Under the pieces are notes generated by a model. The model was not told the DNA's origin. It ran no database searches and worked only from the letters and a program-made list of their open reading frames with translations. This document shows positions 2,691 to 24,539 of a stretch of DNA of 35,535 nucleotides, in pieces (the stretch's first letter is position 1; each line of letters opens with the position of its first letter). The position numbers were made by a program, and so were the translations under genes. Source of the DNA: Desulfobacteraceae bacterium (GTDB lineage Bacteria; Desulfobacterota; DSM-4660; Desulfatiglandales; Desulfatiglandaceae); the NCBI GenBank assembly GCA_030613055.1, contig JAUWMR010000046.1:1-35535 (forward strand), written 5' to 3'.

Positions 2691-5198
2691 ATGATAATGG
2701 ACCGACTCACTGCCTGGTACCTCCGTCTTACCCTGGACCGCCCCTGGATTATCATGGTCTTCATGGTGCTCTTCACCGCCGTCGCCGTCTACTACGCCCA
2801 GGGGTTCAAGCTGGATGCCTCGGCCGACTCCCTGACGCTGGAGAACGACCGGGATCTGCGTTACTACCGCGCCATCCGCGGCCGCTACGGCTCGGATGAC
2901 TTTCTGTTCATCACCTATACACCCAGGGCTGACATCCTCTCCGACGCCACCCTGGCGGACATCAAGGCCCTGCGTGATGAACTCGCGTCAATGGAGCGGA
3001 TTTCCTCGGTGACCAGCCTGCTGGATGTCCCCCTCATCGACAGTCCGCGGATGAGCTTCTCGGAAATCCAGGACGAGACCCGTACCCTGGAGCACCCCAA
3101 GGTGGATCGGGAACTCGCGCGGAGGGAGTTTACCCAAAGCCGCCTCTATCGCAATCTGTTGATGAGCCCGAACGGCAAAACCACCACACTGCAGGTCAAT
3201 TTTAAGCGCGACAAGCGCTATCATGAGCTTTTGCAGAAGCGCGAAGGGCTGCGGGCCAAGCGCCTGGAGGCCCAGCTGAGCCCGGAGGAGCAGACAGAAC
3301 TAGACGCCGTCACCCGGGAGTTCAAACACTACAGTAGCGGCTTCCGGGAACAGGAGAGTACAGACATCGCCCGGGTGCGGGCCATCCTCGACCGCCACAA
3401 GGAAAAGGCGGAGATCCATCTGGGCGGGCTGCCCATGGTCGCAAGCGATATGATCGACTTTATCCGTAACGATATCCGGGTCTTCGGCGTCGGGGTGGCG
3501 CTCTTCCTGATCACCCTGCTTGCCATCGCCTTCAAGCGCCCTCGTTGGGTGTTACTGCCCATGTTGATCTGCATCCTGGCCGGCATCGGCATGATAGGCT
3601 ACCTGGGCCTGGTGGAGTGGCCGGTGACGGTAGTCTCGTCGAACTTTATATCCCTGATGCTGATACTGACCCTGTCGCTTTCGGTGCATCTTATCGTCCG
3701 CTATGAGGAGCTGCAGCACGAGCGACCCGACAGCGACCACCTGTGGAAGGTGGGCGAGACTATAAAATCCAAATTTACGCCGTCGCTCTTCACAGCGCTC
3801 ACCACCATGGTGGCCTTCGCCTCGCTCATCTTCAGCGATATCCGCCCGGTTATGGACTTCGGCTGGATGATGATGGTGGGCGTCGGCATGGCCTTCGTGC
3901 TGGCCTTTCTAATCTTCCCCACCGTGCTCGCCCTGTTGAAGCCGAGCACCCCGGTCTTCCGCCGGGTAGACGTCACCGCCAGAATCACCCGCCGTTTCGC
4001 CCGGCTCATCGAGCGCCGAGGCAAAGGGACACTGATCATCTACGGCGCGGTGGTGATCCTGAGCGTGCTGGGGATCTTTAAACTCACGGTGGAGAACAGC
4101 TTTATCGATTACTTCAAAAAGACCACCGAGATCTACCAGGGGATGCTGCTCATCGACCGGCAGGTGGGTGGCACCACGCCCCTGGATGTCATCCTCAACC
4201 CGACCAAGAAGTTCCTGGCGTTCTATGCTGAGGAGCAGGCCGAAGCCTTTCCGGACGAGGGTTTAAAAATCCCCGGGGAGGGCGAGGCAGGCATCAGTGG
4301 CACAAGCTTCTGGTTCAACATCTTTGAGCTGGAGACCGTCTCCAAAGTCCACGAGTATCTTGAGGGTCTTTCGCAGACCGGCAAGGTGCTCTCCCTGGAC
4401 ACCACCATGGCGCTCCTCACCCAGCTCAATGACGACAAGTCCCTGGATAACTGGACCCTGGCGATTATGTATAAGAAGATGCCCGAGAAGGTGAAGCGCA
4501 TCGTGTTCGAACCCTATATGTCGAGCGACGGAAACCAGGTGCGCTTCGCCGTCCGGATCATCGACTCCGACCCCGAATTGAAGCGCGACGCCCTGATCAA
4601 ACAGATCCGCTCCGACCTGGTGGAGAAGCTGGGGCTGAAGCCGGAGCAGGTGGAGCTCTCGGGGATGCTGGTGCTGTACAACAACGTACTGCAGAGCCTG
4701 TTCCGATCGCAGATGCTCACCCTGAGCGTGGTTTTCGTCGCCATCATGTTGATGTTCGGACTGCTGTTCCGTTCGGTGCGTCTGGCGGCCATCTGCGTTG
4801 TGCCGACCTTGGTGGCGGCGGCGTTGATACTGGGGATGATGGGTTGGTTCGGTATTCCGCTCGATATCATGACCATCACCATCGCCGCCATCACCATCGG
4901 CATCGGGGTGGACGACACCATCCACTATGTACACCGCATCCGCGAAGAGTTCGCCTTGGACGGCGACTACTGGGCAGCGGTGCGACGCAGCCACGGCAGC
5001 GTCGGGCGTGCCATCTACTACACCTCGGTGACCATCACCCTGGGATTCTCCATATTGGCGCTTTCCAACTTCATCCCCAGTATCTACTTCGGCCTGCTCA
5101 CGGGTCTCGCCATGGTGGTGGCCCTGATCGCCAACCTGACCCTGTTGCCGCTGTTGATCGTCGTGTTTAAGCCTCTGGGTCAGGCTCGCAGCGCTTGA
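2691..5198 (+). CDS. RND superfamily exporter, MMPL/HAE3-type
   Basis: This is an inner-membrane, proton-driven efflux permease of the RND superfamily; the substrate is unknown, and lipids or hydrophobic compounds are usual for the group. The chain shows the two-fold RND layout: one helix near the N-terminus (PWIIMVFMVLFTAVAVYY), a large extracytoplasmic loop, five helices to about residue 430, then the same pattern again, about 12 helices in all. The second half contains the conserved GVDDTIHYVHR segment. I place the start at ATG 2691 or 2697 (MDRLTAWYLRL), which gives about 835 residues and puts the first helix close to the N-terminus. The gene is strikingly G+C-rich (around 60% by eye) against its neighbours and is flanked by repeats and transposase remnants, which points to transfer from another lineage. 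No membrane-fusion or outer-membrane partner lies nearby. Confidence 0.9.
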   Translation: MIMDRLTAWYLRLTLDRPWIIMVFMVLFTAVAVYYAQGFKLDASADSLTLENDRDLRYYRAIRGRYGSDDFLFITYTPRADILSDATLADIKALRDELASMERISSVTSLLDVPLIDSPRMSFSEIQDETRTLEHPKVDRELARREFTQSRLYRNLLMSPNGKTTTLQVNFKRDKRYHELLQKREGLRAKRLEAQLSPEEQTELDAVTREFKHYSSGFREQESTDIARVRAILDRHKEKAEIHLGGLPMVASDMIDFIRNDIRVFGVGVALFLITLLAIAFKRPRWVLLPMLICILAGIGMIGYLGLVEWPVTVVSSNFISLMLILTLSLSVHLIVRYEELQHERPDSDHLWKVGETIKSKFTPSLFTALTTMVAFASLIFSDIRPVMDFGWMMMVGVGMAFVLAFLIFPTVLALLKPSTPVFRRVDVTARITRRFARLIERRGKGTLIIYGAVVILSVLGIFKLTVENSFIDYFKKTTEIYQGMLLIDRQVGGTTPLDVILNPTKKFLAFYAEEQAEAFPDEGLKIPGEGEAGISGTSFWFNIFELETVSKVHEYLEGLSQTGKVLSLDTTMALLTQLNDDKSLDNWTLAIMYKKMPEKVKRIVFEPYMSSDGNQVRFAVRIIDSDPELKRDALIKQIRSDLVEKLGLKPEQVELSGMLVLYNNVLQSLFRSQMLTLSVVFVAIMLMFGLLFRSVRLAAICVVPTLVAAALILGMMGWFGIPLDIMTITIAAITIGIGVDDTIHYVHRIREEFALDGDYWAAVRRSHGSVGRAIYYTSVTITLGFSILALSNFIPSIYFGLLTGLAMVVALIANLTLLPLLIVVFKPLGQARSA

Positions 5199-12747: not shown

Positions 12748-12803
12748 GGCCATTCAACTGATTTCAATAAAGACCTCTTAATCCATGAGTAAAGGAGGTT
12801 ACC

Positions 12804-13115
12804 ATGAATGTAATGTTTATTATTACCTCAGATGATGGTGAAACCATCTGCAATGCAATGAGAATCGCCAATATTGCCGTTGATAAGGGCGATGAAGTAA
12901 GTGTTTTCATGCTTGGCAAAGGGGTCCTTTTCGAACAAAGCAGCAATGAGGAGTTTAATGTTCTGGAACAAGTGAGCAAATTTGAAGGGGATTTTTATGT
13001 CTGAGGTGTGTGTATGAAATCCCACGGTCTGGTGGAATCAAGCACATGTCCTATTGCCTGGATGGATGATCTCTATGAATTGTCCATAGAAGCGGATAAG
13101 GTGTTTACTTTTTAA
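12804..13115 (+). CDS. DsrE-family selenoprotein (UGA at codon 67 read as selenocysteine)
   Basis: The first 66 codons encode the N-terminal half of a DsrE/DsrF/TusD-like sulfur-relay fold (MNVMFIITSDDGETICNAMR...). A TGA at 13002-13004 would end the chain there, but the same frame continues as GVCMKSHGLVESSTCPIAW and then MDDLYELSIEADKVFTF to TAA 13113-13115. That continuation is the expected second half of the family, giving 103 residues. Related proteins carry Cys-Gly-x-Cys where this gene has TGA-Gly-Val-Cys, so UGA would put selenocysteine in a redox U-x-x-C motif. A hairpin with a GGTCT loop begins 14 bases after the TGA. AAAGGAGG precedes ATG 12804. The role is probably sulfur or selenium transfer, or redox. 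The alternative, a nonsense mutation, would not explain the intact downstream frame plus hairpin. Confidence 0.83.
13019..13038 (+). promoter_or_regulatory. Candidate bacterial SECIS element
   Basis: ATCCCAC (13019-13025) pairs with GTGGAAT (13032-13038) except for one C-A mismatch, closing the loop GGTCTG (13026-13031). The GGTCT loop is the same as in the E. coli fdhF SECIS, which SelB binds. The loop begins 22 bases after the TGA codon, within the usual bacterial distance (fdhF is about 19). The hairpin lies inside the coding frame, as bacterial SECIS elements do. Confidence 0.75.
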
Positions 13116-13141: not shown

Positions 13142-13175
13142 AAGACCAGAACAAAGTGGTCAGGTCTTTTTCTTT
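13142..13175 (+). terminator. Likely intrinsic terminator after the DsrE-like gene
   Basis: AAGACC (13142-13147) pairs with GGTCTT (13163-13168), followed by a T-rich tract (TTTTTCTTT). GACCA/TGGTC offers an alternative inner pairing. Its position 26 bases after TAA 13113-13115, rather than after the TGA at 13002, fits the longer selenoprotein reading. Confidence 0.6.
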
Positions 13176-23516: not shown

Positions 23517-23807
23517 ATGGAAACAACAATAAAGGAAACAGAACAAATTGTGGATACTATCAAAAGGTTCGGGACAGGGATAGCGATAATACTATTTCCG
23601 GTATTCTTCATAATCTCCAACGCAATTCACCCTGATTTATTCGACATTAGTATGATTCATGACGTGCAATCATGGATAGAACATTTTCATGGAAATAACC
23701 TGCTTCATTTTGCTCATATACTGGAATTATTTATGGCGCCTTTGCTTATAGTAACGGCACTACACTTCATGGGCAGGCTGAAAAAGAAAGGAGTGTACTT
23801 TGGTTGA
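23517..23807 (+). CDS. Small membrane protein, unknown function
   Basis: A 96-residue protein with two predicted transmembrane segments (GIAIILFPVFFIISNAI; ILELFMAPLLIVTALHFMG) joined by a His-rich loop (MIHDVQSWIEHFHGNNLLHFAH). I do not recognise the family. AAGGAGG lies upstream of ATG 23517, somewhat distant. The end overlaps by eight bases a 30-codon frame that itself overlaps the next gene, so the three appear translationally coupled. The histidines could bind metal or haem, which is speculation. Confidence 0.7.
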   Translation: METTIKETEQIVDTIKRFGTGIAIILFPVFFIISNAIHPDLFDISMIHDVQSWIEHFHGNNLLHFAHILELFMAPLLIVTALHFMGRLKKKGVYFG

Positions 23808-23892
23808 ATTAATTAATCTTATCGCGGCAATAGTATTATTCTTTGCCCTTATCCCATACGGAATTTCTGTTATTAAAGGAGGTATAAAATGA
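23800..23892 (+). CDS. 30-residue single-span membrane peptide
   Basis: TTG 23800 starts 30 codons giving a peptide with one hydrophobic helix (LINLIAAIVLFFALIPYGISVI) and a basic tail (KGGIK). AAAGGAG lies at 23786-23792, seven bases before the start. Its TGA (23890-23892) overlaps the next ATG (23889-23891) in an ATGA junction, and its last codons contain the AAAGGAGG ribosome binding site of that gene. Coupling at both ends argues that it is translated. Function unknown; it may be a subunit of a complex with the two flanking membrane proteins. Confidence 0.55.
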   Translation: MVELINLIAAIVLFFALIPYGISVIKGGIK

Positions 23893-24539
23893 TACCAGTA
23901 GAAAAATGGTGGGGCATAATCGGAGCATATGGTTCCAGTATCTGGCCAGCTCAAATAATATCAATAACAATCGCAAGCGCACTGGTTATTTATCTATTCG
24001 TTACGTCTGGAAAGAATGCAAATCTATTGATGAAAATATACCTGTCTTGCTCATTTGCCTGGATTGGCATTATCTTTTTTATAATTCAAGGTAAAGGACT
24101 GGCAGGTAATTATTTTTTCGGAACTTTATTTACAGTTGTAGCAATTTTATTTGTTCTGGACATATACAGGAAAAAGATGGAATTTTGTCTTCCCCAGGCA
24201 AAATGGCAGAAATATCTTACGATATTTTTAATGCTGGTTGTTCTCTGCTACCCCTTGTTCGGCATGGCATTCGGGCATTATTTCCCGAGGTTAATTATAT
24301 TAGGAACCCACCCATGCCCAACTGCAGCATTCGCTGTTCTTCTGCTTACAACAGCGCTTCCGCGGGTTAACAGGATTATTTACGGCATACTGTTGTTCTG
24401 GGCCGTTCCATTCCCAATATTCGTTCAAATTCCTAAATTCGGCGTTTATGAAGATTCAATCATGCTTGGAATTGGAATATATAGTTTGATTATGCTAATA
24501 ACGAACTGGAAGTCGGTAGGTGAAAGCAGTAGAGATTAA
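23889..24539 (+). CDS. DUF6064-like integral membrane protein
   Basis: A 216-residue protein with about seven predicted helices. The N-terminus, WWGIIGAYGSSIWPAQIISI, resembles the start of DUF6064 proteins, which have no known function. Other features are GLAGNYFFGTLF and GTHPCPTAAFAVLLL, a conserved-looking Cys-Pro segment at a helix end. AAAGGAGG is in place before ATG 23889, inside the preceding small frame. The last gene of a three-gene membrane cluster with A+T-rich composition. Confidence 0.75.
   Translation: MIPVEKWWGIIGAYGSSIWPAQIISITIASALVIYLFVTSGKNANLLMKIYLSCSFAWIGIIFFIIQGKGLAGNYFFGTLFTVVAILFVLDIYRKKMEFCLPQAKWQKYLTIFLMLVVLCYPLFGMAFGHYFPRLIILGTHPCPTAAFAVLLLTTALPRVNRIIYGILLFWAVPFPIFVQIPKFGVYEDSIMLGIGIYSLIMLITNWKSVGESSRD

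Follow-up and report, generated by a model that had tools for sequence, protein, structure and literature searches.

The window, a stretch of 35,535 nt from a Desulfobacteraceae bacterium, carries a DsrE-family gene that runs in a single frame through an in-frame TGA, and its product is probably a selenocysteine (Sec)-loaded sulfur-transfer or thiol-redox protein in which U67 and C70 are paired on a DsrE/TusD-type fold, encoded as a single-gene selenoprotein and decoded via SelB, tRNA-Sec and a hairpin.

The gene, its family and the host machinery

The frame opens with ATG at 12804, passes the TGA as codon 67 and closes with TAA at 13113-13115, exactly where the sequence-only reading had placed the frame, the TGA and the TAA. 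Read through, it gives a product of 103 residues with the motif U67-G-V-C70 (C-terminal part ...DFYVUGVCMKSHGLVESSTCPIAWMDDLYELSIEADKVFTF). The features of the locus are as follows:

12794..12798, + strand: Shine-Dalgarno GGAGG, 5 nt 5' of the ATG, strong as judged from the sequence
12804..13115, + strand: predicted gene of a DsrE-family selenoprotein; 103 codons, the 67th for Sec, ending in TAA
13002..13004, + strand: in-frame TGA, read as Sec67, in the alignment column of Cys78, the active-site residue in TusD/DsrE
13011..13013, + strand: codon for Cys70, the second member of the UxxC pair, a Cys in 80/80 sequences
13019..13038, + strand: putative bacterial SECIS hairpin, with frozen silent sites and a covarying pair
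13047..13049, + strand: codon for Cys82, the third of the conserved cysteines, without variation in alignment A1
13144..13161, + strand: terminator-like hairpin followed by a T-run, as had been proposed after the distal stop, but with a weak folding energy that is not significant

The claimed continuation of the family past the TGA, in the same frame and with the expected C-terminal half, is borne out by the Pfam DsrE domain (PF02635), which matches residues 1-103 across the TGA (E 3.4e-11; 43.8 bits vs a cut-off of 22.7). None of the NCBIfam models covers the UGVC DsrE subfamily.

The sequence-only reading had called DsrE-like selenoproteins an already reported class, and rightly so. DsrE-like UxxC selenoproteins (PF02635) were reported in 2005 from the Sargasso Sea (PMC1088965), a list of 2006 includes one from Desulfovibrio vulgaris (PMC1794560), and reviews list such proteins without a function (PMC9312934, PMC13188914), the former giving WP_014524487.1. 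Thus, the window protein belongs to a known kind, with which it shares the Pfam family, the UxxC motif, the replacement of a conserved Cys by Sec and an occurrence in sulfate-reducing Deltaproteobacteria. Its gene combines the Pfam match, a TGA at the place of the Cys, a putative SECIS and the presence of the Sec machinery. The published prototype may belong to the UGVC subfamily of the window protein or to one of the others met here (UG[ST]C, UGKC/UGKLM and UIPC).

With regard to the machinery, the sequence-only reading had named selA, selB, selC and selD as the genes to look for, and had regarded a lack of selB or selC as fatal. All four are present in the same genome, namely selB (E 2.8e-117), selA, a tRNA-Sec (selC) with anticodon TCA and a pair of selD genes, both of which contain one in-frame TGA. 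Since selB occurs in 263 of the 297 sampled genomes of the phylum (89%), its presence is necessary but weak evidence. The two selD copies (L017 and L018) lie on contigs C87 and C68, and a YedF-like N-terminal part beside the C87 copy runs off the contig edge. Elsewhere in the window, the frames at 23517-24539 were considered as a second interrupted gene and rejected, given the TAA between the two frames.

Fold, active-site column and subfamilies

The model obtained from the family alignment is confident (mean pLDDT 92.9, pTM 0.85) and has exclusively DsrE-type structures as its best PDB matches: 3mc3 (Z 15.6), E. coli YchN (Z 15.3), 2qs7 and 3pnx (both Z 13.3), TusC (2d1p chain B, Z 13.1) and DsrH (2hy5 chain C, Z 12.8). 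A search of the PDB by sequence returned nothing truly related, the sole match being nigerythrin at E 0.93. In the model, U67 stands at the end of strand 63-67, with a helix next. A multiple alignment through intermediate subfamilies, in which the TusD sequence of 2d1p was verified, places U67 at the same position as Cys78 in E. coli TusD (2d1p) and Allochromatium DsrE (2hy5), the residue that carries the persulfide in these proteins. The profile-profile comparison with TusD only was weak and aligned the N-terminal half, stopping short of the U67 region, and so the Cys78 equivalence rests on the multiple alignment through the intermediates. Although the fold is the same, the relationship is distant: related DsrE-fold chains are 12-18% identical to the model, and the window protein has 103 residues vs 128-130 for TusD/DsrE. 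Unlike these, it has the extra second Cys of UxxC, and its gene lacks adjoining TusB/C or DsrF/H partners. The TusD/DsrE equivalog model TIGR03012 is not among the matches of the window protein, which stays below its cut-off, and is matched by two of the 43 family members (best E 0.066).

A mechanism can be put forward that is consistent with these results. SelB and tRNA-Sec would decode the UGA at codon 67 as Sec under the direction of the hairpin that lies 21 nt further 3', as conservation and the machinery suggest, and the product would adopt a DsrE/TusD-type fold in which Sec67 sits at the strand end and helix start, in place of Cys78. Most likely the protein would accept and pass on, or reduce, sulfane sulfur; Sec67 would be the group that attacks or carries, and Cys70 the thiol that resolves via a Se-S bond. 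If so, Sec at the persulfide-carrying position of sulfur-relay proteins would make a clean system for asking what difference selenium makes to sulfur transfer.

The search of the phylum sample found the DsrE family in 53 of the 297 genomes. Groups A to D share a single column with Sec or Cys: group A has the UGVC form of the window, group B UG[ST]C or a UGVC from other families, group C the Cys forms CGTC, CGKC, CKVC and CGTA, and group D UGKC/UGKLM. The TGA had been claimed to stand in place of a Cys of the homologues, and in the multiple alignment the more distant relatives of the Cys form indeed carry Cys in exactly that column. Three to four changes between Sec and Cys are required by the tree.

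In four members of group D (L148, L150, L151 and L154) the second Cys of UxxC is a Leu (UGKLM or UGKLL), and Sec may act there without a resolving Cys, to judge by the motif; L146 has Ser at the same position. The genome of the window holds a second DsrE gene with an in-frame TGA and the motif V-U-I-P-C (contig C96, L021:199-537), which likely encodes a further selenoprotein, from another DsrE subfamily, and also a Cys-form DsrE (L020). In one genome the two forms are found in tandem, the Cys form lying immediately 5' of the Sec form (L137:4275-4853, minus strand).

Gene neighbourhood and the Tso cluster

The thioesterase and GNAT genes noted in the sequence-only reading do flank the gene in the window, but this context is not conserved: flanking genes differ in most relatives, and neighbourhood clustering with standard genes found no conserved operon. 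A CoA-disulfide-reductase-like flavoprotein is among the neighbours in some relatives. The genes of the recently described Tso selenoprotein cluster, each with its own TGA, became visible only once TGA was read through. Among the 75 loci with enough upstream sequence (80 relatives), 14 have tsoA, tsoX and/or tsoC directly upstream of dsrE on the same strand (L031, L048, L053, L060, L061, L062, L066, L068, L072, L076, L077, L079, L081 and L085); for L060, L061 and L072 the upstream region was also confirmed to encode the TsoR regulator. Representative genes score 206-221 bits for TsoA (NF045695, cut-off 170), 123-145 for TsoX (NF045809, cut-off 52), 114 for TsoC (NF045708, cut-off 45) and 150-166 for TsoR (NF045707, cut-off 115). 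Across 0.69 Mb, Tso motifs occur 19 times at these loci and one further time in the window, where the match lies within no recognisable gene.

The phylum sample points in the same direction. A tsoA gene is present in 26 of the 297 genomes, 12 of which have the DsrE family vs 4.6 expected (p 4e-4), and in 9 of these 12 pairs the two genes are 62-1988 nt apart on the same strand (five of group A, two of B, one of D and one Cys form). The DsrE genes linked to tsoA thus represent four divergent subfamilies, three with Sec and one with Cys. DsrE is absent from the components of the cluster listed in a recent review (PMC13188914). The linkage may already have been described elsewhere. In some relatives, then, the protein would join the Tso cluster. 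We tentatively suggest, as a proposal that falls a little short of even chances, that the family of DsrE-like selenoproteins works together with this cluster and supplies the Tso pathway with a DsrE-fold sulfur carrier, whose free-standing copies, such as that of the window, would do the same chemistry alone. In the genome of the window tsoA was not detected by the search that finds it in the 26 genomes, and the gene does not adjoin tsoA, tsoX or tsoC. A linkage that extends over Sec and Cys versions offers a concrete way into a selenoprotein pathway that sulfate-reducing bacteria carry and to which no function has yet been assigned.

The same selenoprotein might instead bind a metal or metalloid (mercury, arsenic or others) through Sec67, Cys70 and Cys82, acting in a Tso/metal-stress response and not on sulfur. 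The Tso-linked relatives lie behind TsoR, a regulator of the ArsR/SmtB type, Cys82 provides a third conserved cysteine, and in SaoB, SaoC and UXX-star proteins Sec has been suggested to act as a metal ligand (PMC13188914). Nevertheless, we consider this role unlikely, given that tsoA goes undetected in the genome of the window, that the Sec column is a catalytic and not a metal site in TusD/DsrE, and that group D relatives lack Cys82 and some of them also the second Cys.

Less probable again is a role in carrying reduced selenium to SelD, as in the C-terminal domain of YedF (TIGR03527), which is DsrE-like and has CGTC in the same column as UGVC. YedF is matched weakly by 31 of the 43 family members (best 6e-4), but the window protein lacks its N-terminal TusA/SirA domain and reaches 15 bits vs a cut-off of 110 for the full-length model. 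Proximity to selD-yedF, which would fit such a carrier, is confined to 3 of about 80 loci, and the excess of genomes with selB (263/297) over those with the DsrE family (53/297) indicates that the family is not needed for Sec synthesis.

Conservation of the TGA and the downstream hairpin

For the preferred reading, a Sec-loaded sulfur-transfer or thiol-redox protein, the relatives provide the evidence on decoding. Scanning a single genome for each species yielded 92 of them, and the 80 that were kept are 60-82% identical and belong almost entirely to the Desulfobacterota, with the addition of one Nitrospiraceae bin; the culturable Desulfosarcina widdelii (L043) is among the relatives. In 79 of the 80, TGA at codon 67 is followed by the same C-terminus, whereas Cys occupies the Sec position in none; nor does any close homologue end at residue 66, the outcome that would have spoken for a genuine 66-residue product. 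The TGA is thus kept by selection. Residues 3' of it are strongly conserved, and silent changes are free outside the hairpin, as in coding sequence. Together with the Cys homologues, which read straight through, this pattern argues that the read-through protein is real.

The hairpin consists of arms at 13019-13025 and 13032-13038 and the loop GGTCTG at 13026-13031, which starts 21 nt after the UGA. A hairpin with 7-bp arms had been claimed; arms and loop are there, but in the window six of the seven pairs form, C13021-A13036 being a mismatch. The GGUCU of the loop resembles the E. coli fdhF SECIS loop. An Rfam search of the window gave no match. A fold test had also been suggested, and by this measure the element is unexceptional (z +0.47 over 40 nt and -1.5 over 65 nt), so that folding energy, not being significant, was rejected as proof of a SECIS and comparative evidence was used instead.

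The comparison of the 80 sequences does reveal a selected element. Silent sites over the hairpin are frozen, with Ser as TCC in 70/72, His as CAC in 78/80 and the Gly codons as GGT in 76/80 and GGA in 70/74; an equally invariant Gly five codons 5' of the TGA uses all four codons, and the Pro, Cys and Leu codons just 3' of the hairpin show free silent variation. Loop bases 1, 2 and 5 (G, G and U) do not vary. Furthermore, a stem pair changes from T-A to G-C in five sequences (Fisher p 7e-7, a value that ignores relatedness). Frozen silent codons and a covarying pair thus point to a selected RNA element, and the hairpin at 13019-13038 is best read as a SECIS on this comparative basis. Its stability appears to be only mildly selected, since against a synonymous-recoding null the mean z is -1.4, with p<=0.05 in only 23% of the sequences. 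The relatives of the gene also supply annotation work with a rich natural alignment of the SECIS.

It is very improbable that the TGA is a true stop, with a 66-residue peptide as the product and the rest untranslated or a pseudogene: the standard code does end the frame there and the folding energy of the hairpin is weak, but the coding-like conservation beyond the TGA, its retention in the relatives and the uninterrupted Cys homologues all contradict it. A genome-wide reassignment of TGA, for example to Trp or Gly, has nothing in its favour beyond the in-frame TGA itself, runs against the presence of tRNA-Sec(UCA) and SelB, and is excluded, given that TGA ends 4 of the 26 long frames in the window.

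The lone exception among the 80 relatives, L086, has TGG at the Sec position plus an in-frame TAG and is probably a decayed or misread copy. L084 (TAG at 3079) and L101 keep the TGA and have an in-frame TAG upstream of it. The single in-frame TAG codons of these three sequences may reflect assembly error, decay or other recoding.
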